Assembly (NCBI GenBank): GCA_003402345.1
Contig: QFXH01000002.1
Coordinates: 248,001-312,000, forward strand
Reading direction: 5' to 3'
Origin: Candidatus Nitrotoga sp. MKT
GTDB lineage: Bacteria; Pseudomonadota; Gammaproteobacteria; Burkholderiales; Gallionellaceae
Length of the DNA stretch: 64,000 nucleotides
In this document: positions 14,461 through 47,078 of the stretch, in pieces
How positions within the stretch are numbered: position 1 is the stretch's first letter
How the letters are laid out: every line of letters starts with the position of its first letter
Notes under the pieces: generated by a model
The model's input: only the letters and a program-made list of their open reading frames with translations
Told to the model about the DNA's origin: nothing
Database searches by the model: none
Program-made: the position numbers and the translations under genes

Positions 14461-15054
14461 ATGAGAATCGAGATGAAAAAACCGGCCGCACAGTTTCTGA
14501 TTTCATTCATTCTACTTGGCATTAGTAGTGCTGCCTTCGCCCATCCCGGCCATGATGTTTCCGGATTGAGCGCTGGCCTGATGCATCCGTTCAGAGGGTT
14601 GGATCATCTGCTCGCCATGGTTGCCGTGGGCTTGTGGGCAGCACAAAATGGCGGCAAGAAAATAGGGCTGTTGCCCACCGCTTTCATGTTGATGATGGCA
14701 GTCGGCGCAAAGTGTGCGCTAATGTATCCGTATCTACCACTGATTGAATCAGGCATCGCTGCTTCGGTGTTGGTGCTAGGAGTTATCACCGCACTCTCGC
14801 TGAATTTTTCTGCACGGCTCGGCGTTGCGATCACTGCCTTATTCGGTTTTTTTCATGGTTACGCCCATGGATTGGAAATGTCCGGCGCTTTCGAAGCGGA
14901 AGCCTACGCACTGGGTTTTCTTGCTACAACTGTCGCTCTCCATCTCGCAGGTATCGTGGTCGGCATCGCCACTCGTGCCCATTTTGTGCGTCTGCCGCAA
15001 ATGCTGGGCGCCATCATTGCCGCTAGTGGTTTATGGCTGCTATCAACTACATAA
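14461..15054 (+). CDS. HupE/UreJ family metal transporter
   Basis: The 197-residue protein starts with a signal peptide (ending near 'SAAFAHPGHD'). The HupE signature follows: 'HPGHDVSGLSAGLMHPFRGL' then 'DHLLAMVAVGLWA'. 'FFHGYAHGLE' is the second conserved histidine-rich segment. About six hydrophobic helices are present. HupE/UreJ proteins are nickel (or cobalt) permeases linked to hydrogenase or urease, but no such enzyme is in this window. A second ATG at 14473 is an equally possible start. It is 30 bp upstream of the DUF6884-like gene, but that unit looks inserted, so a functional link is not implied. Confidence 0.85.
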   Translation: MRIEMKKPAAQFLISFILLGISSAAFAHPGHDVSGLSAGLMHPFRGLDHLLAMVAVGLWAAQNGGKKIGLLPTAFMLMMAVGAKCALMYPYLPLIESGIAASVLVLGVITALSLNFSARLGVAITALFGFFHGYAHGLEMSGAFEAEAYALGFLATTVALHLAGIVVGIATRAHFVRLPQMLGAIIAASGLWLLSTT

Positions 15055-15084
15055 TTTAATTTATATATCAATGGAAGAGAAACC

Positions 15085-15501
15085 ATGAAAAAGCGGATAG
15101 TTCTTATTTCATGCGTAAGCCAAAAGCTATCGCATCGTGCGAAGGCAAAGGACTTGTACATAAGTACGCTTTTCAAGCTCAACCTTAAATATGCCAATAG
15201 TTTGGAACCTGACGGTATCTATATTCTTTCGGCAAAGCACGATCTGTTAAGCTTGGAACAAGAAATTGAGCCATATGAGCAAACGCTCAATGATATGCGA
15301 GCATATGAAATCAAAGAGTGGGCAAGTCGAGTTCTACGGCAACTAAGTGAAATTGCCTCTTTAGACGAAACCGAAATTTTATTTCTTGCCGGTGATAAAT
15401 ATAGAAAACACCTACTGCCCCATTTCAGGTTCGTGCAAATCCCTCTTGAGGGGTTACGCATCGGTGAGCAGCTTCAGAGGCTTAAGGAGCTGACTGGATG
15501 A
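15085..15501 (+). CDS. DUF6884-like protein (first gene of integron cassette)
   Basis: The 138-residue protein has the pattern I associate with DUF6884: an N-terminal 'VLISCVSQKL' with 'AKDLYISTLF', then 'IYILSAKHDLLSLEQEIEPY', and a C-terminal 'PLEGLRIGEQLQRLKEL'. Its biochemical function is not known to me. It may use the conserved Cys and Lys near the N-terminus as in related nucleotide-binding folds, but that is inference. 'ggaagaga' lies a few bases before the ATG. The stop codon overlaps the next gene's start by 4 bp (ATGA), so the two products are probably made together. The region is richer in A+T than its neighbours. Confidence 0.7.
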   Translation: MKKRIVLISCVSQKLSHRAKAKDLYISTLFKLNLKYANSLEPDGIYILSAKHDLLSLEQEIEPYEQTLNDMRAYEIKEWASRVLRQLSEIASLDETEILFLAGDKYRKHLLPHFRFVQIPLEGLRIGEQLQRLKELTG

Positions 15502-16133
15502 ACAATGAATGCGAAGCTGTCCATAATTTAGCCCGTAGCCTTGAAAGGCAATGTTTTCCATTTGACGAATCAAATATCCCATCTAATGGAATTTACATCT
15601 TATTTGAAAAGGGAGAGGAAGGACATGTAGGAGAGAGAATTGTAAGGGTTGGCACGCATACAGGGGCGAATCAGCTCTGTTCAAGATTGAAACAGCACTT
15701 CATCAATAATAACAAAGACCGAAGTATCTTTCGAAAGAATATCGGACGTGCTTTGTTAAATCAAAATGGCGATCCATTTCTTAAGTTCTGGGAGCTTGAT
15801 CTTACAACCAGAAAAGCCCGAAAAAATTATTCATCATTAATTGACTTTGGGTATCAGAAGTCAATTGAGGAACAAGTCAGCCAGTATATTCAATGCAATT
15901 TTACATTCTGCGTCTTTGAAGTAAACAGTAAGGATGAAAGACTGGAAATTGAATCAAAGATTATTTCTACTGTTTCTATGTGTGTGGGTTGTAACCCTTC
16001 GAAAACATGGCTTGGGAACTTTTCGCCAAAGCACAAAATTATTGAAAGTGGCTTGTGGCTGGTAAATGAACTATACAAAACACCGCTTGATACTTTTGGC
16101 ATTGAACATCTATCAAGGTTGGTCAAAGGCTAA
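15498..16133 (+). CDS. GIY-YIG-like nuclease (second gene of integron cassette)
   Basis: The 211-residue protein has a GIY-YIG-like N-terminus: 'NGIYILFEKG' is the GIY motif, 'RIVRVGTHTG' stands where YIG is expected, and 'LCSRLKQHF' supplies the conserved arginine. 'ERLEIESKII' offers the catalytic glutamate. 'WLGNFSP' and 'IIESGLWLVNELY' are C-terminal features seen in some restriction-type GIY-YIG proteins. The central Y-I-G is changed to R-V-G, so activity needs testing. Its TAA stop codon is inside the R'' box of the attC site, which is the normal arrangement at the end of an integron gene cassette. Confidence 0.68.
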   Translation: MNNECEAVHNLARSLERQCFPFDESNIPSNGIYILFEKGEEGHVGERIVRVGTHTGANQLCSRLKQHFINNNKDRSIFRKNIGRALLNQNGDPFLKFWELDLTTRKARKNYSSLIDFGYQKSIEEQVSQYIQCNFTFCVFEVNSKDERLEIESKIISTVSMCVGCNPSKTWLGNFSPKHKIIESGLWLVNELYKTPLDTFGIEHLSRLVKG

Positions 16134-16211
16134 CAATCTCATACACGCGGACAGCAAAAGCGTGCTCGTTCCTCGCTCTGCTTTTCGCTGCCGGCGATGC
16201 ATGTCGTTAGC
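16130..16211 (+). other. attC: Integron attC recombination site
   Basis: The 82-bp imperfect palindrome starts GCTAACAA and ends GTTAGC. The outer 6 bp are exactly complementary (R'' and R'). The inner boxes CGCGGACAGC and GCTGCCGGCG pair with extra unpaired bases, as in the L''/L' boxes with extrahelical bases. AAAAGC and GCTTTT pair further in, around a variable tip. The stop codon of the preceding gene lies in the R'' box. All of this is typical of an attC site. No intI gene and no second attC are visible in the window, so this looks like an isolated cassette rather than an active array. Confidence 0.75.
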
Positions 16212-16263
16212 AGCCATGCGACTGATCATCCTTCAATCCGTATTTCTTCTATCGCTTCCTGAG

Positions 16264-16386
16264 GGACAGCGGGGTCTTGCAATACAGCAAAAGAAGAAAG
16301 CATATGAGACCGGTAATTATACGATGCAGCAGATTGCCGATGCTTTTGGGGTGCATTATTCCACTGTCAGCAGAGCTGCTCCATAA
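16264..16386 (+). pseudogene. Remnant of REP-associated (RAYT/IS200-like) transposase C-terminus
   Basis: About 40 codons in one frame read 'KKAYETGNYTMQQIADAFGV' and then 'HYSTVSRAA' before a stop. This matches the C-terminal helix-turn-helix tail of REP-associated tyrosine transposases (pattern: AY-xG-YT-x2-IG-x2-F-G-V-HY-TVSR). The catalytic HUH part is absent, so it is only a fragment. It lies between the attC site and the end of rng. Confidence 0.5.
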
Positions 16387-16487
16387 ACTTCGCTCAAAAA
16401 TGCATACTTGCAAGACTTGTATAAATTGAATAACCCGGCATCACCGCAGCATCACAATAAAGGGCATCTTTAAATATTAGAGCAAAA

Positions 16488-17942
16488 TCACATTAAAATG
16501 ATGTCGTATTGCTCTTGGCTATACAAATTTTCCACCTGTAGTGACACCGGTTTGCCGATAAGATCAGAAAGTTGGGCCAAGCTTTGCGATTCTTCGTCGA
16601 GAAATAGGTCGATGACCAGTTGCGAAGCCAGGATTCGATATTCACGGGCGTTAAACTGGCGTGCTTCGCGCGTAATTTCGCGCACAATTTCGTAGCATAT
16701 GGTCTGCGCGGTCTTTACTTCGCCGCGCCCACCGCAGGTGGGACAAGACTCGCACAGTATGTGGGCCAAACTTTCGCGCGTGCGTTTGCGCGTCATTTCC
16801 ACCAGCCCCAAAGCGGAGAAACCATTTACCGTGATACGGGTGTGATCGTTTGCCAGCGACTTCTTAAATTCTTCCAGCACGGCATCGCGGTGTTCCTGGT
16901 TATTCATGTCAATAAAGTCGCAAATGATGATGCCGCCCAAATTCCGCAGGCGTAACTGGCGCGCGATGACTTGTGCGGCATCCAAATTTGTCTTGAAGAT
17001 GGTGTCGTCAAAATTACGCGAACCGACGAAGCCACCGGTGTTAACGTCGACCGTGGTGAGCGCTTCGGTTTGGTCAATAATGATATAACCCCCCGATTTG
17101 AGATTCACGCGGCGTGACAGCGCACGCTCAATCTCCTCCTCTACTCCATACAGCTCAAATAGCGGACGCTCGCCGACGTAATGCTCCAGCCGCGACACCG
17201 CGCTGGAAATAAAATCCTGTGCGAAAGCAGCCATTCGCTGGTACGTTTCGCGTGAATCCACCAAGATGCGTGTCGTGCTTTCGTTGACGAAATCGCGCAA
17301 TACACAGAGGCTGATATTGAGCTCTTGGTATAACAAAAAAGGGGCGGTAGATGTTTTCGCCTGCTCTTGGAGCTTGATCCACAGTTTGTTGAGGTATTCC
17401 ATGTCGGCGAGCAACTCTTTGTCTGTCGCAGTCTCCGCCATGGTGCGGATGATATAGCCGCCGCTGCTATTTTCAGGCAGCAACTGTTGCAGCTTGGCGC
17501 GCAATAGTTCGCGCTCGGCCTCATTCTCAATGCGTTGCGATACGCCGATGTGCGATTCCTGCGGCAGAAACACCAGCAAACGCCCAGCAATGCTGATCTG
17601 GGTAGAAAGCCTGGCACCCTTGCTGCCAATAGAATCCTTGATGACCTGTACCAGCAGACTTTGCCCCTCATACAGCATTTTCTCGATAGGTTTGGCAATA
17701 TCGCTGTTACTGCGGCTTTCCCAGATGTCCGCAACATGCAGGAAAGCAGAGCGTTCCAGCCCAATGTCGATGAAGGCGGACTGCATGCCCGGCAGCACGC
17801 GTTTCACGCGCCCGACGTACACATTGCTGACTATTCCGAGATGGCTGCCGCGCTCAATGTGGAGTTGTTGCACTATTCCCTGTTGCATTACTGCAACGCG
17901 GGTTTCCTGCGGAGTAACATTTATAAGAATTTCGTCATTCAC
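16488..17942 (-). CDS. rng: Ribonuclease G
   Basis: RNase G is an endonuclease of the RNase E/G family that matures the 5' end of 16S rRNA and starts decay of some mRNAs. The 484 residues are the RNase G length, without the long C-terminal tail of RNase E. The S1 domain is at about 38-120 ('VYVGRVKRVLPGMQSAFIDI'). The catalytic DNase I-like part has 'TTVDVNTGGFVGSRN' and 'IIICDFIDM', with the two magnesium-binding aspartates. 'CPTCGGRG' is the Zn-link. The start overlaps the maf stop by 4 bp. It is the last gene of the aceE-to-rng operon. Confidence 0.95.
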   Translation of the reverse strand: MNDEILINVTPQETRVAVMQQGIVQQLHIERGSHLGIVSNVYVGRVKRVLPGMQSAFIDIGLERSAFLHVADIWESRSNSDIAKPIEKMLYEGQSLLVQVIKDSIGSKGARLSTQISIAGRLLVFLPQESHIGVSQRIENEAERELLRAKLQQLLPENSSGGYIIRTMAETATDKELLADMEYLNKLWIKLQEQAKTSTAPFLLYQELNISLCVLRDFVNESTTRILVDSRETYQRMAAFAQDFISSAVSRLEHYVGERPLFELYGVEEEIERALSRRVNLKSGGYIIIDQTEALTTVDVNTGGFVGSRNFDDTIFKTNLDAAQVIARQLRLRNLGGIIICDFIDMNNQEHRDAVLEEFKKSLANDHTRITVNGFSALGLVEMTRKRTRESLAHILCESCPTCGGRGEVKTAQTICYEIVREITREARQFNAREYRILASQLVIDLFLDEESQSLAQLSDLIGKPVSLQVENLYSQEQYDIILM

Positions 17943-39846: not shown

Positions 39847-39971
39847 ACTTAACCTAAATTGGCGTTAAATTTTAGATATTACCTACATCTGAATGATGTA
39901 ATAAAGGTTTTTTGTGCTCCATAGTTTAATTATTACATTGTCACGTTTAACCTCAAAATGCCTCAATACAC

Positions 39972-41210
39972 TTATCGTTTAACCATCTCGATATTTGGGA
40001 GCGGAAACACCAAATTTACGCCCCTATATTTATCATTTTCTTGGAAAAATTTTCTAAAATGCCATGGCAAAACGATCAGATAATCCGGCTTTTGCGATAG
40101 CAACTTTGCTTCTGGAATGATGGGGATCCATGTACCTGGGGTGTAACAGTCATATTTTTCTGGATTAACCTCGCCAATAAACGAAATGTCTTTTTCTGTC
40201 ACTCCGCAGTATTGCAACAGTACGTTTCCCTTTGTAGATGCGCCGAGTGCCGCGACTGTTTTATTTTCCGCATGGGCTGTTTTGATGAAAGCCAGTAAGT
40301 CGTACTTCGTTTTAGCTGCACGTTCCGCAAATTTTTGATAAGGCGCAAGCGTATCTAGCCCATTCGCCTGTTCAAGATCAAGAATCTTCTTCACCAAAGG
40401 AACTGGTGTTAAATCGCCATGCGATTTCGATACCGTGATTGAGAAGCTGCCTCCATTAACTTCATTGAACTCTACATCAACAATCTTGAAGCCCACTCTA
40501 TCAGCCATCCATTTGATCTGGCGTAGAGCATAAAACTCAACATGCTCATGACAAACTGTGTCATATGAATTCATCTCCAGCATAGTTGGCATATAGCTTT
40601 GTTCAAATACCCAAACTCCATCATCTGCAAGTATGTCATGCACTTGTTGCATAAAGTCCGTTGGGTCTTCTAGATCGTAGAACATTGAAAACGAAGTGAC
40701 TACTTTTGCTTTTCGCTTTGGGAAATATTCTTTAACTAAAGCTGAAGAAAAAAAATTGGGGATTAGTTGAATGTGCGGTGGGTAGTAACTGTGAAATTTA
40801 ATTCCCGTCGGGTCAATGCCTACCAGATCCGGCCCAAAAGATGGATATGCCTGCAACGTAGTACTGTCGTTACTACCAATATCAATAACAAGATCGCCTT
40901 TGTGCAACTCAACCTGCTCCAGGATTTTTTTCACCTTGTCATTGAGGTGAGCTACCATGCTGGCATTGAGACCGGAACGATAACCATAGTTCTCGCCATA
41001 CATCTCGTCAGAATTATAGGAATGCTCAAGCTGCAATAGCCCACAGATATCGTCTCCCCCCATGCATTTCACCAAACGCAATGGGCCTGTCGTGATTTTT
41101 GAGCTTTTCTCGCGCGGAAATATTCCAGTCAGCATCTGCTCTCCCAAATCGAGCACGGGCTCCAGATGCTTATTGCCACAAATTCTGCATTTTTCAATTT
41201 TTGTGAACAC
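39972..41210 (-). CDS. SAM-dependent sugar C-methyltransferase
   Basis: The 412-residue protein has three parts. The N-terminal zinc-binding segment is 'CRICGNKHLEPVLDLGEQ' plus later cysteines. A class I SAM domain follows with 'LVIDIGSNDSTTLQAY'. The C-terminal part, about 290-410, has 'KTVAALGASTKGNVLLQYCG' and ends in 'FPLPNIEMV'. This is the architecture of NDP-sugar C-methyltransferases such as TylC3-type enzymes. GTG 41210 was chosen because it has 'aggga' upstream and avoids a 47-bp overlap with the gmd-like gene. Beside that gene, it could methylate a GDP-4-keto-6-deoxyhexose to a branched sugar; this is inference. Confidence 0.85.
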   Translation of the reverse strand: MFTKIEKCRICGNKHLEPVLDLGEQMLTGIFPREKSSKITTGPLRLVKCMGGDDICGLLQLEHSYNSDEMYGENYGYRSGLNASMVAHLNDKVKKILEQVELHKGDLVIDIGSNDSTTLQAYPSFGPDLVGIDPTGIKFHSYYPPHIQLIPNFFSSALVKEYFPKRKAKVVTSFSMFYDLEDPTDFMQQVHDILADDGVWVFEQSYMPTMLEMNSYDTVCHEHVEFYALRQIKWMADRVGFKIVDVEFNEVNGGSFSITVSKSHGDLTPVPLVKKILDLEQANGLDTLAPYQKFAERAAKTKYDLLAFIKTAHAENKTVAALGASTKGNVLLQYCGVTEKDISFIGEVNPEKYDCYTPGTWIPIIPEAKLLSQKPDYLIVLPWHFRKFFQENDKYRGVNLVFPLPNIEMVKR

Positions 41211-41220
41211 TATCTTATCC

Positions 41221-42198
41221 CTATCCTTTTGCGCGATCCTGCTCAATGAGCTTACGCAAATCGGCATCCACCATCATGCTTACCATCTCGTGAAACCCTA
41301 CTTCAGGTATCCAGCCGAGTTGATTTCTCAATTTCTTGGAGTTTCCCACTAACTGCACAGATTCAATGGGGCGATATGAAGCAGAATCCTCTCGGACATA
41401 GTCGCAATAATCCAAATTAAAATGTCCGAAGGCGATTTCGCACAGCTCTCGTACCGAGTGCGTTTCACCAGTGGCAACCACATAATCATCCGCGTGCGGG
41501 TGCTGCAACATCAGCCACATTGCGCGCACATAATCTCCCGCAAAGCCCCAATCACGGCGTGCATCAAGATTTCCCAAGTAAAGTTCATTCACCAGTCCCA
41601 GTTTAATCTTCGCCACTGCATGTGTTATTTTTCTTGTTACAAAACCCAATCCACGACGGGAACTCTCGTGATTGAACAGAATCGCCGAGCATCCATATAA
41701 TCCATAGTGCTGGCGGTAAATCTGGATCATCGAATGTGCGTAAAGCTTTGCGGCACCATATGGGGTACGGGGTCGAAATGGCGTTGCTTCTGATTGAGGG
41801 CTTTCGAGTGCATTACCAAACATTTCACTACTTGATGCCTGGCAAAAACGAATATCGGTATCCACTGCGCGAATGGCATCCAGCATCCGGGCAACCGCTA
41901 GCCCATTTACCTCTCCGATATCAACAGCATCCTTGAACATTCCTGCTCCTGATGAATAGGCGGCCAAGTTATAAATCTCCGCTGGGCGATATTCAGCCAA
42001 TACCTCTGTCATTCGACATTGATCCAACATGTTCCATGCGACTAACTTAACACTCTGCATCAATACTGTGGTGAGGGACTCTTTGGCATTTTGTATATTT
42101 CTAACTGCACCAACGACACGATAACCTTTGGTAAGCAACAATTCCGCCAAATATGAGCCATCTTGGCCTGTTATACCGATTATTAAGGCTGTTTTCAT
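41221..42198 (-). CDS. GDP-mannose 4,6-dehydratase-like SDR
   Basis: The 325-residue protein has 'ALIIGITGQDGSYLAELL', the GMD-type NADP motif. The catalytic Ser region is 'ASSSEMFGNA', followed by 'YGAAKLYAHSM' with the YxxxK pair. 'HESSRRGLGFVTRKI' matches the GMD block HESPRRG. 'LYLGNLDARRDWGFAGDYV' is also a GMD signature. It should make GDP-4-keto-6-deoxymannose from GDP-mannose, whose precursor is supplied by manC at 47 kb. No GDP-fucose synthase or GDP-rhamnose reductase is next to it; a C-methyltransferase is. Confidence 0.88.
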   Translation of the reverse strand: MKTALIIGITGQDGSYLAELLLTKGYRVVGAVRNIQNAKESLTTVLMQSVKLVAWNMLDQCRMTEVLAEYRPAEIYNLAAYSSGAGMFKDAVDIGEVNGLAVARMLDAIRAVDTDIRFCQASSSEMFGNALESPQSEATPFRPRTPYGAAKLYAHSMIQIYRQHYGLYGCSAILFNHESSRRGLGFVTRKITHAVAKIKLGLVNELYLGNLDARRDWGFAGDYVRAMWLMLQHPHADDYVVATGETHSVRELCEIAFGHFNLDYCDYVREDSASYRPIESVQLVGNSKKLRNQLGWIPEVGFHEMVSMMVDADLRKLIEQDRAKG

Positions 42199-42207
42199 AA
42201 GTATATG

Positions 42208-43230
42208 TCAGAGAAATCGAGCCAAAAAACGACTAACCCAAGTAGCATACCTACTACGTGAAAGATCATACAATACTGAACGGGCATTTCTATTCACGAA
42301 AACACAGTAAAGACTGACAAATACATTTGCGATGGCGGCAGGAAAGATTGCAATTGCCATATACACCACACGAGAAAGTCCTTTTGTCCTAACCTCTATA
42401 AAATGACGGTACTCGGAAATGGTATATCCTCCAGTAGCTCTATATAAAATGAGTTTTTTAATTGGCCTCCATGGCTCTTTGGAACATACAGTAGACTTCG
42501 ATTGATCTGAGAAATCAGGAAACGACCAAATCAACTGCGGCCATTTAAACATCCAAATTTCAAAACCCCGCGAGGTCCACATCGCATTACCATAACGTAT
42601 TATTATCAACGGATCTGCAATAACCTTGACCTTGTTTATCGGGGGATGCTGGAAGATAACGCCGATATGAATGAACAGTGTTCCGTAATAGGACAAACGA
42701 TCCCGCTCTAACCACAAGCTTCGCTTCACAACAACACCACCGATGAACGAAAGATAATTCGCTGCTTCAGAAAAAAACTCTTCGCCATCCTTTGCTGCGT
42801 ACTCCTTGTCAGTAGTAAGTTTGAGCAAACGAGTTTCGAGCACCTTTGAAAAATCGACATTTCTTACTTGAGAATTCACAACGACCAGATCGAACTCTCC
42901 ATTAAGAGACTCAAGAACACGAGAAATAGCCATAGGAGACAATAGATCGTCATCGGTCACCAACCAACAGTATTCTCCCCTTGCATAACCAACAGCCTTA
43001 TCATAGTCGCCATCCACACCCGAATTTTCTTGCTCACGGAAATAACGAATTTCAGGATGGCACAACAAATATTGCGCCATCACTTCAGGGGTGTTATCCG
43101 GTGACGCTCCATCCACAATGACAAGCTCAACACCAGGCACTATCTGACTAAGGATAGAATCCAGAGTCTCACCGATAAATCGCCCTCTGTTATAGGTTGC
43201 CATGCAAATTGAAAGTTTTGTTTCATTCAT
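42208..43230 (-). CDS. GT2 glycosyltransferase (abequosyltransferase-like group)
   Basis: The 340-residue protein begins 'KLSICMATYNRGRFIGETL'. 'VELVIVDGASPDNTPEVM' and 'YCWLVTDDDLLSPMAI' provide the nucleotide and DXD sites. A C-terminal hydrophobic helix (VYMAIAIFPAAIANVFVSLY) may anchor it in the membrane. The DDD form and overall layout resemble WbaV/RfbV abequosyltransferases, which add dideoxy side sugars; that assignment is tentative. Confidence 0.8.
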   Translation of the reverse strand: MNETKLSICMATYNRGRFIGETLDSILSQIVPGVELVIVDGASPDNTPEVMAQYLLCHPEIRYFREQENSGVDGDYDKAVGYARGEYCWLVTDDDLLSPMAISRVLESLNGEFDLVVVNSQVRNVDFSKVLETRLLKLTTDKEYAAKDGEEFFSEAANYLSFIGGVVVKRSLWLERDRLSYYGTLFIHIGVIFQHPPINKVKVIADPLIIIRYGNAMWTSRGFEIWMFKWPQLIWSFPDFSDQSKSTVCSKEPWRPIKKLILYRATGGYTISEYRHFIEVRTKGLSRVVYMAIAIFPAAIANVFVSLYCVFVNRNARSVLYDLSRSRYATWVSRFLARFL

Positions 43231-43243
43231 TTTTCAACCACTC

Positions 43244-43999
43244 TTACAACCAACCAAAACGGCGGCTCCCTGCAATCAATGAAAGCGGAATATCTTTATA
43301 GTTCTCAACCAGACAACACAAATACTCACCCTCACTAGGCATAAACTTGTCTAATTCGACTGTCCAATCATCAATTTTTACCCATTTATTATTTTTAAAA
43401 TCAAAACGCTTTATTACCCTACATGGATTACCGATAGCAATACTAAATGGTGGTAAATCATGCACGACCAGAGATCGTGCACCTACAACCGTACCGCAAC
43501 CAACCCTCACATTCTGTAAAACGGTAACTGATGTCGCAAGCCAACAATTAACACCAATTTCAATAATGCCCCCCGCACTTAACCCAGATGCAATGTAAGG
43601 CATAAACGGCGTATCAATATTGTGACCACACCCTAAAAAATGGCAATCCAATCCAGTAAATCCATAATCTTTAATTTGAATGCGTGGTCCAGACGAAAAA
43701 TAATTTCGTCTGCCGATATGGCAATTATTGCCAATAACAATGCGGCTAGTTAGATCAGCCCTGAAATTCACATTAAACCAAGACTCTTCTGATATCGTTG
43801 TATTACAACCGATTGATACATTTTTCCAACCAACAACTTGGACACTTGGATCTACGTAGCTATTACGTCCAACTTGCGATTTTCTGAATTGTCTTGCCTG
43901 TCCCCAAGATAATGTAGCTAACCTATAGACAACACCACAGAATCGCCATGGCAACAAAGTAAATAAGCGTCGCTTTATTTGTTTTATGACAAGCCTCAT
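43244..43999 (-). CDS. Hexapeptide-repeat (LbH) acyltransferase
   Basis: The 251-residue protein shows a left-handed beta-helix pattern of hexapeptide repeats from about residue 45 to 195, for example 'SVQVVGWKNVSIGCNTTI', 'RIVIGNNCHIGRRNYF' and 'VTVLQNVRVGCGTVVGARSL', then 'IAIGNPCRVIKRF'. Such proteins are usually acetyltransferases acting on sugars with acetyl-CoA. The N-terminus is basic and could contact the membrane. It probably O-acetylates the repeat unit or a precursor sugar. Confidence 0.82.
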   Translation of the reverse strand: MRLVIKQIKRRLFTLLPWRFCGVVYRLATLSWGQARQFRKSQVGRNSYVDPSVQVVGWKNVSIGCNTTISEESWFNVNFRADLTSRIVIGNNCHIGRRNYFSSGPRIQIKDYGFTGLDCHFLGCGHNIDTPFMPYIASGLSAGGIIEIGVNCWLATSVTVLQNVRVGCGTVVGARSLVVHDLPPFSIAIGNPCRVIKRFDFKNNKWVKIDDWTVELDKFMPSEGEYLCCLVENYKDIPLSLIAGSRRFGWL

Positions 44000-44026
44000 T
44001 ACAATGGCTCCAAATTTATAACAAAA

Positions 44027-45541
44027 TCAATTTTTTCCGGTATCCACTACTTGCTTGCTATGGAAATAACGAGAAATCAATAAAAGTAGTTGGGGTGTCA
44101 GTAATACATTAACTACAACCGTAAGCAAAGCTATACTGCCACCGATTGCTAATTTGATATAGATAGAGTACTCGAGATTTTGACAAATATATTTGGCCGC
44201 CATTCCAGCTATTAGCGCTACACCCAGCGGTACTCCGACGTCACGAAATAACCATTGTTTGCCCAGCCCCCTTAATAGATGCCGATGTGTCAACCATGTA
44301 CCCAGCAATACGTACAATGCATGAAGCGTGAGCCATGCCATTGCGCCGCCCAATACACCATACGTAAGCGTAAAAAATACGATTAACGGCAATATGACAA
44401 TCATCAATACCCCATTGATGATTAATGGTAATCGCGTCATCCCAAACGCTAATTGAAGAGCATGTGGAATAAACATTATGCAGTTTAATGCTGACCCTAT
44501 AGCCAGAAGCGTTACAACAGGAGCTACGCTTGACGCGAGCTCCGTATTCCCTGTCCAAATACGCACTAAGTCATAAGCAAAAACGGCTAGTATCATCGCG
44601 GTCGGAAATAGGATTATTGAGAGTATGCGCGTACACAACCGGTAAAGATTGCCGAGTTTTTTAAAATCGCCACTGGCCACAAGGGCAGAAAAACGCGGAT
44701 ACACGGCGTTGTACATCGGCGTGACCAAAACATACAACCCACTCACCACAACAGTGGCAAGCATATAGTGGCCAAACTCTTCCAATCCAAGCATTTTGCT
44801 AAGAATTACCTTGTCCAATTGTGTAAATACAATTCCTGACAAAGCGACACCACTCATCCCCGCAGAAAAACGACATATACTTTTCAGCTTATTAATATCA
44901 AACCGCATGCCCGGTATTCGCCCTATGATCCGCCATGCCCCCCAGCGCATGGTAACCGCATAAACAAAACCTACGCAGGCCTGCCAAATGAAAAAGGCCT
45001 CAATCGTCGGCGAGACAAACGCGAGCACTACCACCGCGCCCAAACTTCCGATCGTCACCATGGCCATATTAATACCACTCGATACCGCCAAACGCTGCGC
45101 CCCGATCAATGCACCTTGATACAGGCCGATTGGCCATCGGCAAGCAATAACCAGCCCCATTAACATCACAGCGTGTGAAATTGTTTGCGGTGAAAGTTGT
45201 TTAGACTGCAACCAATACTCTGCAATTAATGGCGCGAACATCAGGATCAATAAAGCGATTACCCCCGCCATACTCCAATAGATAATGGCAAGTGTGTGTA
45301 GTAGCGTTCCCGCTTCCTTTAAATTTCCAGATGCGGAATGGCGTGCAACTTCGCGGATGATCGTTGGAGCTAATCCCATATCAAGAAGGGAAAGCAATGC
45401 CTGCGTCGTCACAAAGAAACCGATCAAACCATAGGCTTCTATTCCGAGGTATTTAAGATAAAAGGGTATGACTGCCAAGCCGATCAGTGCCGACCAAATT
45501 GAGTTTGCTAATCCTGCAAGTAGGTTGCCACTCAGCCTCAT
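44027..45541 (-). CDS. O-antigen flippase Wzx-like (MOP superfamily)
   Basis: The 504-residue protein is almost entirely hydrophobic, with about 14 helices. 'LAGLANSIWSALIGLAVIPF' and 'LLSLLDMGLAPTIIREVAR' match the first helices and loop of the Wzx/RfbX polysaccharide exporter family. It should move undecaprenyl-linked repeat units across the inner membrane, which points to a Wzx/Wzy pathway. No Wzy polymerase with the usual large periplasmic loop is recognisable in the window. Confidence 0.87.
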   Translation of the reverse strand: MRLSGNLLAGLANSIWSALIGLAVIPFYLKYLGIEAYGLIGFFVTTQALLSLLDMGLAPTIIREVARHSASGNLKEAGTLLHTLAIIYWSMAGVIALLILMFAPLIAEYWLQSKQLSPQTISHAVMLMGLVIACRWPIGLYQGALIGAQRLAVSSGINMAMVTIGSLGAVVVLAFVSPTIEAFFIWQACVGFVYAVTMRWGAWRIIGRIPGMRFDINKLKSICRFSAGMSGVALSGIVFTQLDKVILSKMLGLEEFGHYMLATVVVSGLYVLVTPMYNAVYPRFSALVASGDFKKLGNLYRLCTRILSIILFPTAMILAVFAYDLVRIWTGNTELASSVAPVVTLLAIGSALNCIMFIPHALQLAFGMTRLPLIINGVLMIVILPLIVFFTLTYGVLGGAMAWLTLHALYVLLGTWLTHRHLLRGLGKQWLFRDVGVPLGVALIAGMAAKYICQNLEYSIYIKLAIGGSIALLTVVVNVLLTPQLLLLISRYFHSKQVVDTGKN

Positions 45542-45755
45542 TATGCTGGGAAATTCACGAGAGTCGTGTCATTGGAATGCCCATTGAATCGTATAGCCGA
45601 GCCAGCCGCAATGGCCAAAAATGCAAGTCTTGGATCCAAGAGATAAAGGGGCAAAAAATTCAAGGTTCAAGGCTAGAGGCACATGACGAGATTTATGAGC
45701 GCAGTTTTTATATCTATTTTTTATTTATGCATTTCATATTTAAAATTAATTCCCA

Positions 45756-47078
45756 TTAACGGCCAATGGGAAAATACTCCAGGCCGTGTGCATTTACCGT
45801 AGCCAATTCATACAAACTACGGCCATCGAATATTAATGGGGTTTTAAGCTTAGTTTTGATTATTGCGAAGTCCGGATTGCGGAACTCTTTCCACTCAGTG
45901 ACGATAACCAATGCATCTGCATCTGTACAGGCTGTGAACGGATTGTCTGCATAAGAAATTCTGGGATCATTACCAAAAATTCGTTGCGCTTCTGACATGG
46001 CTACCGGGTCATAGGCCGTAACGGTAGCGCCTGCCTCTAATAAATCTGAAATCAGCTTGCGGCTCGGGGCGTCACGCATATCATCGGTATTGGGCTTGAA
46101 AGCAAGCCCCCAAATGGCAAAGTTTTTTCCAATAAGATTGGTACCGAATCTGGCTTTTATTTTGTTCGTGAGGACTTCTTTTTGTGCATCGTTGGCTGCT
46201 TCTACGGCATTGAGTACTTTAAGGGTGATGCCGGCGTCGTCATTAGCAGTTTTGATGAGTGCTTTTACATCTTTGGGAAAGCATGATCCCCCGTAACCGC
46301 AACCCGAATAAAGGAAATGGTAGCCGATGCGGGTATCAGAACCAATACCTAGCCTTACCATTTCAATGTCGGCACCAAGTTTTTCCGCAACATTGGCCAG
46401 TTCGTTCATGAAACTGATACGGGTGGCAAGCATGGCATTGGCGGCATATTTAGTAAGTTCTGCACTTTTGACATCCATGACGATAATACGGTCATGGTTG
46501 CGATTAAATGGGGCATATAATTCCCGCAACTGTTGGATGGCATGTATATCATCGCCGCCAATGACGATGCGGTCAGGGCGCATGAAATCTTCAATCGCCG
46601 CGCCTTCTTTAAGGAATTCAGGGTTGGATATGACGCTATACTTAAGCTTAATGCCACGCTTTTGCAATTCTTCTGCGATAACTGCGCTTACCTTATTGGC
46701 AGTACCAATCGGAACCGTACTTTTATCAACAAATATTTTGTCTTCGGTCATACGGCTGCCGATATTTCTGGCTGCCGCCAAAACATATTGCAGGTCGGCA
46801 GAGCCGTCTTCATCGGGGGGAGTGCCTACGGCAATGAACTGGATACGGGCATGAGCAACGGCGCGATCTATGTCTGTGGTGAAACCGAGGCGGCCAGCGG
46901 CAACATTGCGCCGCACAATGTCGACCAAACCAGGCTCATGGATAGGGATATCACCATTTTCCAAAATGCGTATTTTTTCTGGGTCAAGATCGAGGCACAG
47001 AACATGATTACCAACCTCTGCAAGGCATGCACCGCTAACTAGACCCACATATCCGGTTCCTACTATTGTAACTTTCAA
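45756..47078 (-). CDS. ugd: UDP-glucose 6-dehydrogenase
   Basis: The enzyme oxidises UDP-glucose to UDP-glucuronate with NAD. The 440 residues have '[20 protein letters not shown]' at the N-terminus, '[14 protein letters not shown]' in the linker, the catalytic cysteine in '[14 protein letters not shown]', and '[15 protein letters not shown]' in the C-terminal domain. The start is a TTG behind 'ggagat'. UDP-glucuronate feeds uronic acid residues of exopolysaccharide or O-antigen. It is divergent from manC. Confidence 0.95.

Follow-up and report, generated by a model that had tools for sequence, protein, structure and literature searches.

Between hupE and a gene that we take to encode RNase G (rng/cafA), Candidatus Nitrotoga sp. 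MKT carries two short overlapping genes followed by a palindrome. This raises the question of what kind of element the pair forms and what its two proteins might do. The locus lies in a window of 64,000 nucleotides, the whole stretch of DNA that was analysed, for which the first-pass annotation had proposed a two-gene integron cassette with a possible defence role.

Two coupled genes match a catalogued candidate pair

The two genes, M57A and M57B, adjoin each other on the same strand (Table 1). The stop codon TGA of M57A (15499-15501) and the start codon ATG of M57B (15498-15500) form an ATGA overlap, and the stop codon TAA of M57B (16131-16133) lies within GGCTAAC, the R'' box of the predicted attC. 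The exact ORF coordinates and the overlap thus bear out the earlier reading of two translationally coupled genes, as does the position of the second stop codon in the R'' box. M57A matches the PADLOC model PDC-M57A over residues 3-135 of 138 (E 1.2e-56), and M57B matches PDC-M57B over nearly its full length (E 3.9e-98). With both proteins matching the candidate pair PDC-M57, the two genes already have an entry among the catalogued defence candidates. A literature search for the term "PDC-M57" found no paper. PDC candidates come from a guilt-by-embedding approach and are mostly unvalidated, as stated in the accessible part of PMC12988326. The view that two genes make a cassette odd had to be given up, since cassettes occasionally hold more than one ORF according to the available text of a review (PMC12409362).

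Table 1. Features of the hupE-rng interval, in window coordinates
Feature	Position	Strand	Evidence and remarks
hupE/ureJ, resident	14461..15054	+	Pfam HupE_UreJ E 2e-52; 30 bp before the pair, same direction
Left junction, no GTTAG	15055..15084	.	hupE flank common to relatives to ~15073, then cassette-like leader; by eye
M57A, DUF6884/YaaA-like, 138 aa	15085..15501	+	Pfam PF21818 E 6e-45; PADLOC PDC-M57A E 1e-56
M57B, probable GIY-YIG nuclease, 211 aa	15498..16133	+	PADLOC PDC-M57B E 4e-98; invariant motif residues
attC (R'' GGCTAAC, R' GTTAGCA), cassette end	16128..16212	+	Fold z -2.67; homology to integron-borne attC; missed by model R1
Degenerate HTH remnant, approximate extent	16260..16430	+	Weak HTH Pfam matches below cut-off
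Resident downstream gene	16488..17942	-	DNA 79-97% identical in relatives; native sequence resumes ~16430

Evidence for an attC site behind M57B

The bottom strand of 16129-16214 folds at -20 kcal/mol, compared with a shuffle mean of -13.95 (z -2.67; 1 of 200 shuffles was as good), and the top strand folds more weakly (z -2.07; 7 of 200 as good). When the window was scanned for YYAAC...GTTRR with matching R boxes, this site had the lowest energy per base of 11 passing rows; under the different filter of a second scan, which 12 window rows passed, it did so in the reverse reading only. A strict RYYYAAC scan excludes it because its second base is G. Three of 158 family genomes, the organism's own among them, have DNA related to the site, as do, at E ≤ 0.1, 7 of 72,556 plasmid records. 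On the Providencia plasmid pCHS4.1-1 a homologous attC lies between two genes in a series that begins next to an annotated integron integrase. Six copies could be aligned. In their consensus stem, which does not include the R boxes, only one pair varies on both sides, with an unfavourable covariation term, so that the site is supported by homology and context rather than by covariation. A broader attC alignment (A4) was messy, and scans of the window with Rfam (gathering threshold) and for tRNAs gave nothing.

A covariance model (R1) was built from 26 attCs of related genomes, none of them from M57 loci. It gave no match at the window site with filters on or off, which by that test alone would make the palindrome background. 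The same model misses the attCs of two M57 loci, L003 and L004, and finds that of a third, L006 (24 bits, E 0.011), its sole match at E ≤ 10 in 52 sources. Because R1 also detects attCs outside its training set (L136, L122, L124, L098), it works but is narrow. Its miss of the window site is put down to this narrowness, yet counts against the assignment. The covariance-model check proposed earlier thus came out as background with a narrow model, but is outweighed by the homology to an integron-borne attC. On the homology of the six copies, one of them beside an integron integrase, and on the fold, the palindrome is assigned as an attC, and the claim that the pair ends in one stands. The same attC type was also seen on Nitrosococcus halophilus pNHAL01 (39968-46037; L150), within a run of small genes whose annotations include restriction, nucleotide binding and HNH.

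Cassette boundaries in the window and in relatives

A pattern and tblastn scan of a collection of species genomes gave 42 loci with M57B relatives, of which 37 could be aligned and are 48-74% identical to the window protein. At three loci, M57A is immediately preceded by GTTAGCCC and M57B is followed by an attC: L003 (a Verrucomicrobia MAG, 74%), L004 (Marinomonas, 72%) and L006 (a Spirulina MAG, 67%). The attC of L003 is close kin of the window attC, and that of L004 was judged by eye. At the other 39 loci no attC was seen by eye in the ~140 bases behind M57B, and model R1 found none. The four attC-linked members all fall within one nine-row clade of a 38-row tree (support 98/97, from a bootstrap that had not settled).

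The 5' cassette boundary G^TTRRRY is present in L003, L004 and L006 and absent in the window, where the leader after ~15073 resembles that of L004. GTTAG is missing where the hupE flank meets the leader, which suggests that the left cassette edge was lost in a small deletion. Given the attC homology and the presence of both boundaries in the three relatives, the proposal of an integron cassette is upheld: the segment is almost certainly a single two-gene cassette lying outside any integron. The only integrase over cut-off in the host genome is on another contig (C10:2071-3012, 472.7 bits), and weaker recombinase matches lie ~59 kb away on the contig of the window. Across the family, 83 of 158 genomes have an integrase above cut-off. 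The organism's own chromosomal integron lies at a contig end (G000:C10:77-3015, L053). Its integrase is followed, in this order, by a divergent gene that resembles a small multidrug transporter by eye and is itself followed by an attC, by an HNH endonuclease gene and by an apparent transposase fragment.

The host site is filled differently in relatives

A hupE match was found in 9 of 19 genus genomes; its DNA is 90-93% identical in six relatives and 68-71% identical over part of the gene in two more. Little DNA separates hupE from rng in G106, G111, G096 and G110, of which G110 has a broken hupE. The window genome and three relatives (G099, G100, G103) have an insert in this slot, and G108 allowed no judgement. 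In G099 the insert is an OLD-like ATPase gene with an attC behind it (33.7 bits with model R1); in G100 it is a gene with no Pfam or PADLOC match, and behind this gene stands a palindrome that is attC-like by eye, on which R1 is silent. Both inserts stand behind the same 142-bp leader (92% identical), which itself has an attC-like fold (z -3.84). The slot of G103 (L100:3100-5200) contains a different insertion, whose genes apparently lie on the opposite strand; next to hupE the sequence resembles the 3' end of a tRNA (both by eye). The HTH remnant behind the window attC reads like the C terminus of a transposase by eye and also occurs behind the inserts of three relatives.

A promoter scan gave no + strand match upstream of M57A. 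Because the pair also begins only 30 bp behind hupE, read-through from hupE would be likely, and the cassette is probably transcribed from the hupE side.

Copies of this attC-like element of 142 bp are dispersed through the genus (for example L099:2815-2956 and L098:3219-3363), the host's own genome included (G000:C3:181604-181743 and C8:49038-49071). It occurs in 37 of 158 family genomes, single-contig genomes included, and some genomes have at least five copies. In all 20 loci listed (L118-L137) the element ends with ..TATTCGTT, and in 17 of these an ORF of at least 50 aa starts within 160 bases behind it; several such ORFs end in an apparent second attC (by eye). Three of ten scanned genes behind the element match PADLOC at E ≤ 0.001 (L126, L128, L129), namely a type II methylase, an Mrr-type enzyme and the FRG-domain PDC-S15. 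The OLD-like gene of the hupE slot (L098:3367-5091) is a fourth such match; the slot gene of G100 has none.

M57A is related to YaaA proteins

M57A scores 153 bits with the Pfam family DUF6884 (PF21818; cut-off 30), which confirms the assignment made in the first-pass annotation. Searches of both proteins against NCBIfam gave nothing useful. The PHROGs matches of M57A are phage families of unknown function, and the PADLOC model for DpdC matches it weakly (E 0.005). An alignment of M57A (A1, 26 rows) was made from the window and 25 of 30 loci, four fusions and the truncated L012 being dropped. The residues C10 and K14 of a CxxxK motif are invariant in it. The LSAxxG motif is absent from the window protein, which reads LSAKHD; at residue 53 (15241-15243) a D replaces the G, a residue that is absent in 4 of 26 rows.

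The top PDB sequence match of M57A is a YaaA structure, at a weak E of 0.11. The M57A partner genes in L005, L007 and L145 exceed the Pfam YaaA cut-off and so bridge the M57A relatives to YaaA; on these sequence relationships M57A is placed with the YaaA proteins. DUF6884 proteins are described in the accessible text of the Pfam paper (PMC11701544) as YaaA-like, with a common fold and a positive cleft. The same text lists the DUF6884 protein YfjM among the binders of abasic and ribonucleotide DNA lesions, and reports an AlphaFold3 model of a DUF6884 member that flips a base. DpdC, which is required to form a 7-deazaguanine base in DNA, carries DUF6884 according to the part of PMC11888242 at hand.

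M57B is a probable GIY-YIG nuclease

The window M57B matches no Pfam family, and a PHROGs search gave no match below E 0.1. An alignment (A2, 38 rows) was made from the window and the 37 alignable loci; L033, L036, L041, L042 and L043 were dropped as extended, with a stop inside, truncated or fragments. At E ≤ 1, PF01541 is weakly matched by 19 of the 38 rows (best E 0.0083), DUF123 by 22 and GIY_YIG_2 by six. Seven residues are invariant, G31, Y33, R50, G52, R63, H67 and E152, and M57B keeps G-I-Y, R-x-G, R...H and E. This is the order of a GIY-YIG active site, with R50 standing where YIG has its Y. A PDB sequence search found no match. Two hhalign comparisons with GIY-YIG proteins gave no support; in the second, one of the four template rows, meant as UvrC, was on the wrong strand. 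By its motif residues M57B is probably a GIY-YIG nuclease. The earlier label GIY-YIG-like is thus supported by the invariant residues and the weak matches of relatives, but the window protein itself stays below the Pfam threshold.

Linkage, distribution and selection

Five of the 42 loci were unusable for linkage, L023, L035 and L041 being too near a contig start and L042 and L043 being fragments. An M57A-type gene is linked to M57B in 32 of the 37 others. In 30 it was found by tblastn; L005 and L007 instead have a diverged YaaA/DUF6884-type gene directly upstream. No M57A partner was found in L022, L027, L030, L031 and L036, though L030 keeps a 23-residue trace. In four of the 42 loci (L010, L019, L029, L044) M57A and M57B are fused as one ORF, and the same fusion occurs in two distant loci of the host's family (L057, L058). 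Among eight more distant loci, a profile search found an M57A-type neighbour in L138, L139, L140, L142, L144 and L145 and none in L143 and L146; L140 passes the Pfam cut-off of DUF6884, L142 and L144 are just below it, and L145 passes that of YaaA. In L005:592-2762 and L007:4963-7506 (Bacteroidota MAGs) M57B is flanked on one side by the YaaA/DUF6884-type gene and on the other by a third gene, whose GIY-YIG match exceeds the cut-off; this may be a three-gene variant.

M57A-type proteins without M57B are common, 102 phage and 155 plasmid records matching M57A at E ≤ 1e-3. The association of the two families therefore holds from the side of M57B, in 32 of 37 loci and four of 42 fused, but DUF6884 at large commonly occurs without it. 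M57B itself matches five plasmid records and none of 50,697 phage records at E ≤ 1e-5, and a prophage origin was dropped on the latter count. In viral contigs no relative was found with a single-protein query, and three at 44-47% with an alignment. A reading as homing endonuclease was also considered and dropped.

Including the host's own genome, M57B occurs in 1 of 19 genus, 3 of 158 family, 4 of 369 sampled class and 3 of 398 phylum genomes, the other copies being only distant forms. The 42 loci nevertheless span Pseudomonadota, Bacteroidota, Cyanobacteriota, Bacillota, Actinomycetota, Patescibacteria and several archaeal groups. Being rare yet spread across many phyla, M57B points to horizontal transfer.

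Between the window and L003, dN is ~0.17 for both genes, and dS is 1.7 for M57A and 3.3, a saturated value, for M57B; other pairs involving the window were saturated. dN is thus far below dS, and both proteins are kept. This bears on the reading that the cassette was captured by chance, lost its left boundary and is now a stranded element in slow decay. Such decay would agree with the missing GTTAG, the G to D exchange in LSAxxG and the location of the only integrase over cut-off on another contig. However, both frames are intact, most near-invariant columns are kept (the invariant ones are so by definition) and dN is low, and we hold this reading to be very improbable.

Neighbourhood evidence for a role in defence

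For the loci, 50 near neighbours from 29 loci were tallied as raw counts, 25 of 55 families being shown. Single neighbours match BrxL, a type IV restriction enzyme, AbiEi, AbiEii and Cas4, and two match viperin models but may be ordinary radical-SAM proteins. BrxL lies at L032:100-2154, ~110 bp before M57A. Other defence-type neighbours were placed by eye in L034, L022 and L040, where PDB searches of the neighbours gave nothing or unrelated matches. In L009 one of eight neighbours has a weak match to LmuB (E 2e-5), and one neighbour each from L004 and L006 has no defence match. In the host slot, or behind the attC-like element of the genus, stand an OLD-like ATPase, an Mrr-type enzyme, a restriction-modification methylase and an FRG protein. 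Most M57 neighbours look ordinary by eye, and many archaeal loci have apparent housekeeping genes. The defence role suggested earlier thus gains from the PADLOC listing and from defence-type neighbours in a minority of loci; on balance we consider it fairly probable.

The main rival is a DNA-repair pair, in which M57A would sense abasic sites, ribonucleotides or damaged bases in host DNA and M57B would incise as the GIY-YIG domain of UvrC does, the pair spreading as accessory repair. The many archaeal and small-genome loci amid apparent housekeeping genes (by eye) suit it, as does the place of YfjM among DNA-lesion interactors in the accessible text of PMC11701544. On the other hand, PADLOC lists the pair as a defence candidate, its occurrence is very patchy (1/19 genus, 3/158 family, 4/369 class genomes), and it is carried in cassettes and next to BrxL. 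Repair is thus rather unlikely. A toxin-antitoxin or abortive-infection module, with one nuclease harmful to the cell and restrained by its coupled partner until infection, would account for the tight ATGA coupling and for the likely AbiE-like pair beside M57B in L022 (placed by eye; the PDB search did not confirm it). The single-chain fusions fit badly with a releasable antitoxin, however, and both proteins keep enzyme-like invariant residues, which leaves such a module improbable.

A possible base-directed mechanism

Within the preferred reading, defence, the YaaA kinship of M57A and the GIY-YIG-like character of M57B suggest recognition of a particular base combined with strand cutting. M57A would bind DNA and flip out a particular non-canonical or modified base, which it may also excise. 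M57B, made in step with M57A, would cut at or near that base, so that DNA containing it, from phages or other foreign sources, would be destroyed. That the cassette pair is a two-protein base-directed restriction module is about an even call. The data show the order and coupling of the genes, their families, linkage and fusions, the cassette nature, the patchy spread and the low dN; DNA target, base specificity, cleavage, defence and expression are what we infer, and the base-directed chemistry as such is put forward tentatively, as somewhat less than an even prospect. A wider proposal is more doubtful: M57 could be a restriction system of new design, a cassette-sized combination of a base-flipping, perhaps excising, sensor of YaaA fold with a GIY-YIG nuclease, whose spread across bacterial phyla was helped by travel as a cassette, the archaeal copies (not attC-linked here) deriving from the same module.

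Relation to known systems and meaning

The window pair is a member of PDC-M57, with the same proteins in the same order at near-full length; what is added is a member seen as an integron cassette with defined ends. Integron anti-phage cassettes of Vibrio and of mobile integrons (Darracq 2025, Kieffer 2025 and Getz 2025, via PMC12409362 and PMC12444791) are likewise small defence-type modules ending in attC. The window differs from them as a single cassette outside an integron, and the accessible portions of these two sources do not name the M57 family. Brig1 and Brig3-BapA (PMC11078745, PMC13160076) defend by excising modified phage bases, a logic related to the one proposed here for M57, and Brig3-BapA is also a two-gene operon. 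However, in the available descriptions, on which this comparison with M57 is based, the Brig proteins are relatives of uracil-DNA glycosylase, and BapA is a glucosyl hydrolase and not a nuclease. YaaA and DpdC share the family of M57A and its link to DNA binding or DNA-base chemistry; the accessible texts on them mention no M57B partner. Base-excision restriction enzymes, compared by their description in the available part of PMC10273834, restrict by base removal with strand cutting, as the proposed mechanism of M57 would.

In kind the element is not new, since both the candidate pair and the type of vehicle were known before; its interest lies in a clean testable unit and its host slot. With two genes in 1.1 kb, natural cassette ends and natural single-chain fusions, it is an easy candidate to test. 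A defined activity would give a function to DUF6884, a Pfam family of unknown function that also occurs in phages and in DpdC. The locus is also a further example of a defence-type cassette that lives outside an integron, in a chromosomal slot where two relatives have other cassettes.
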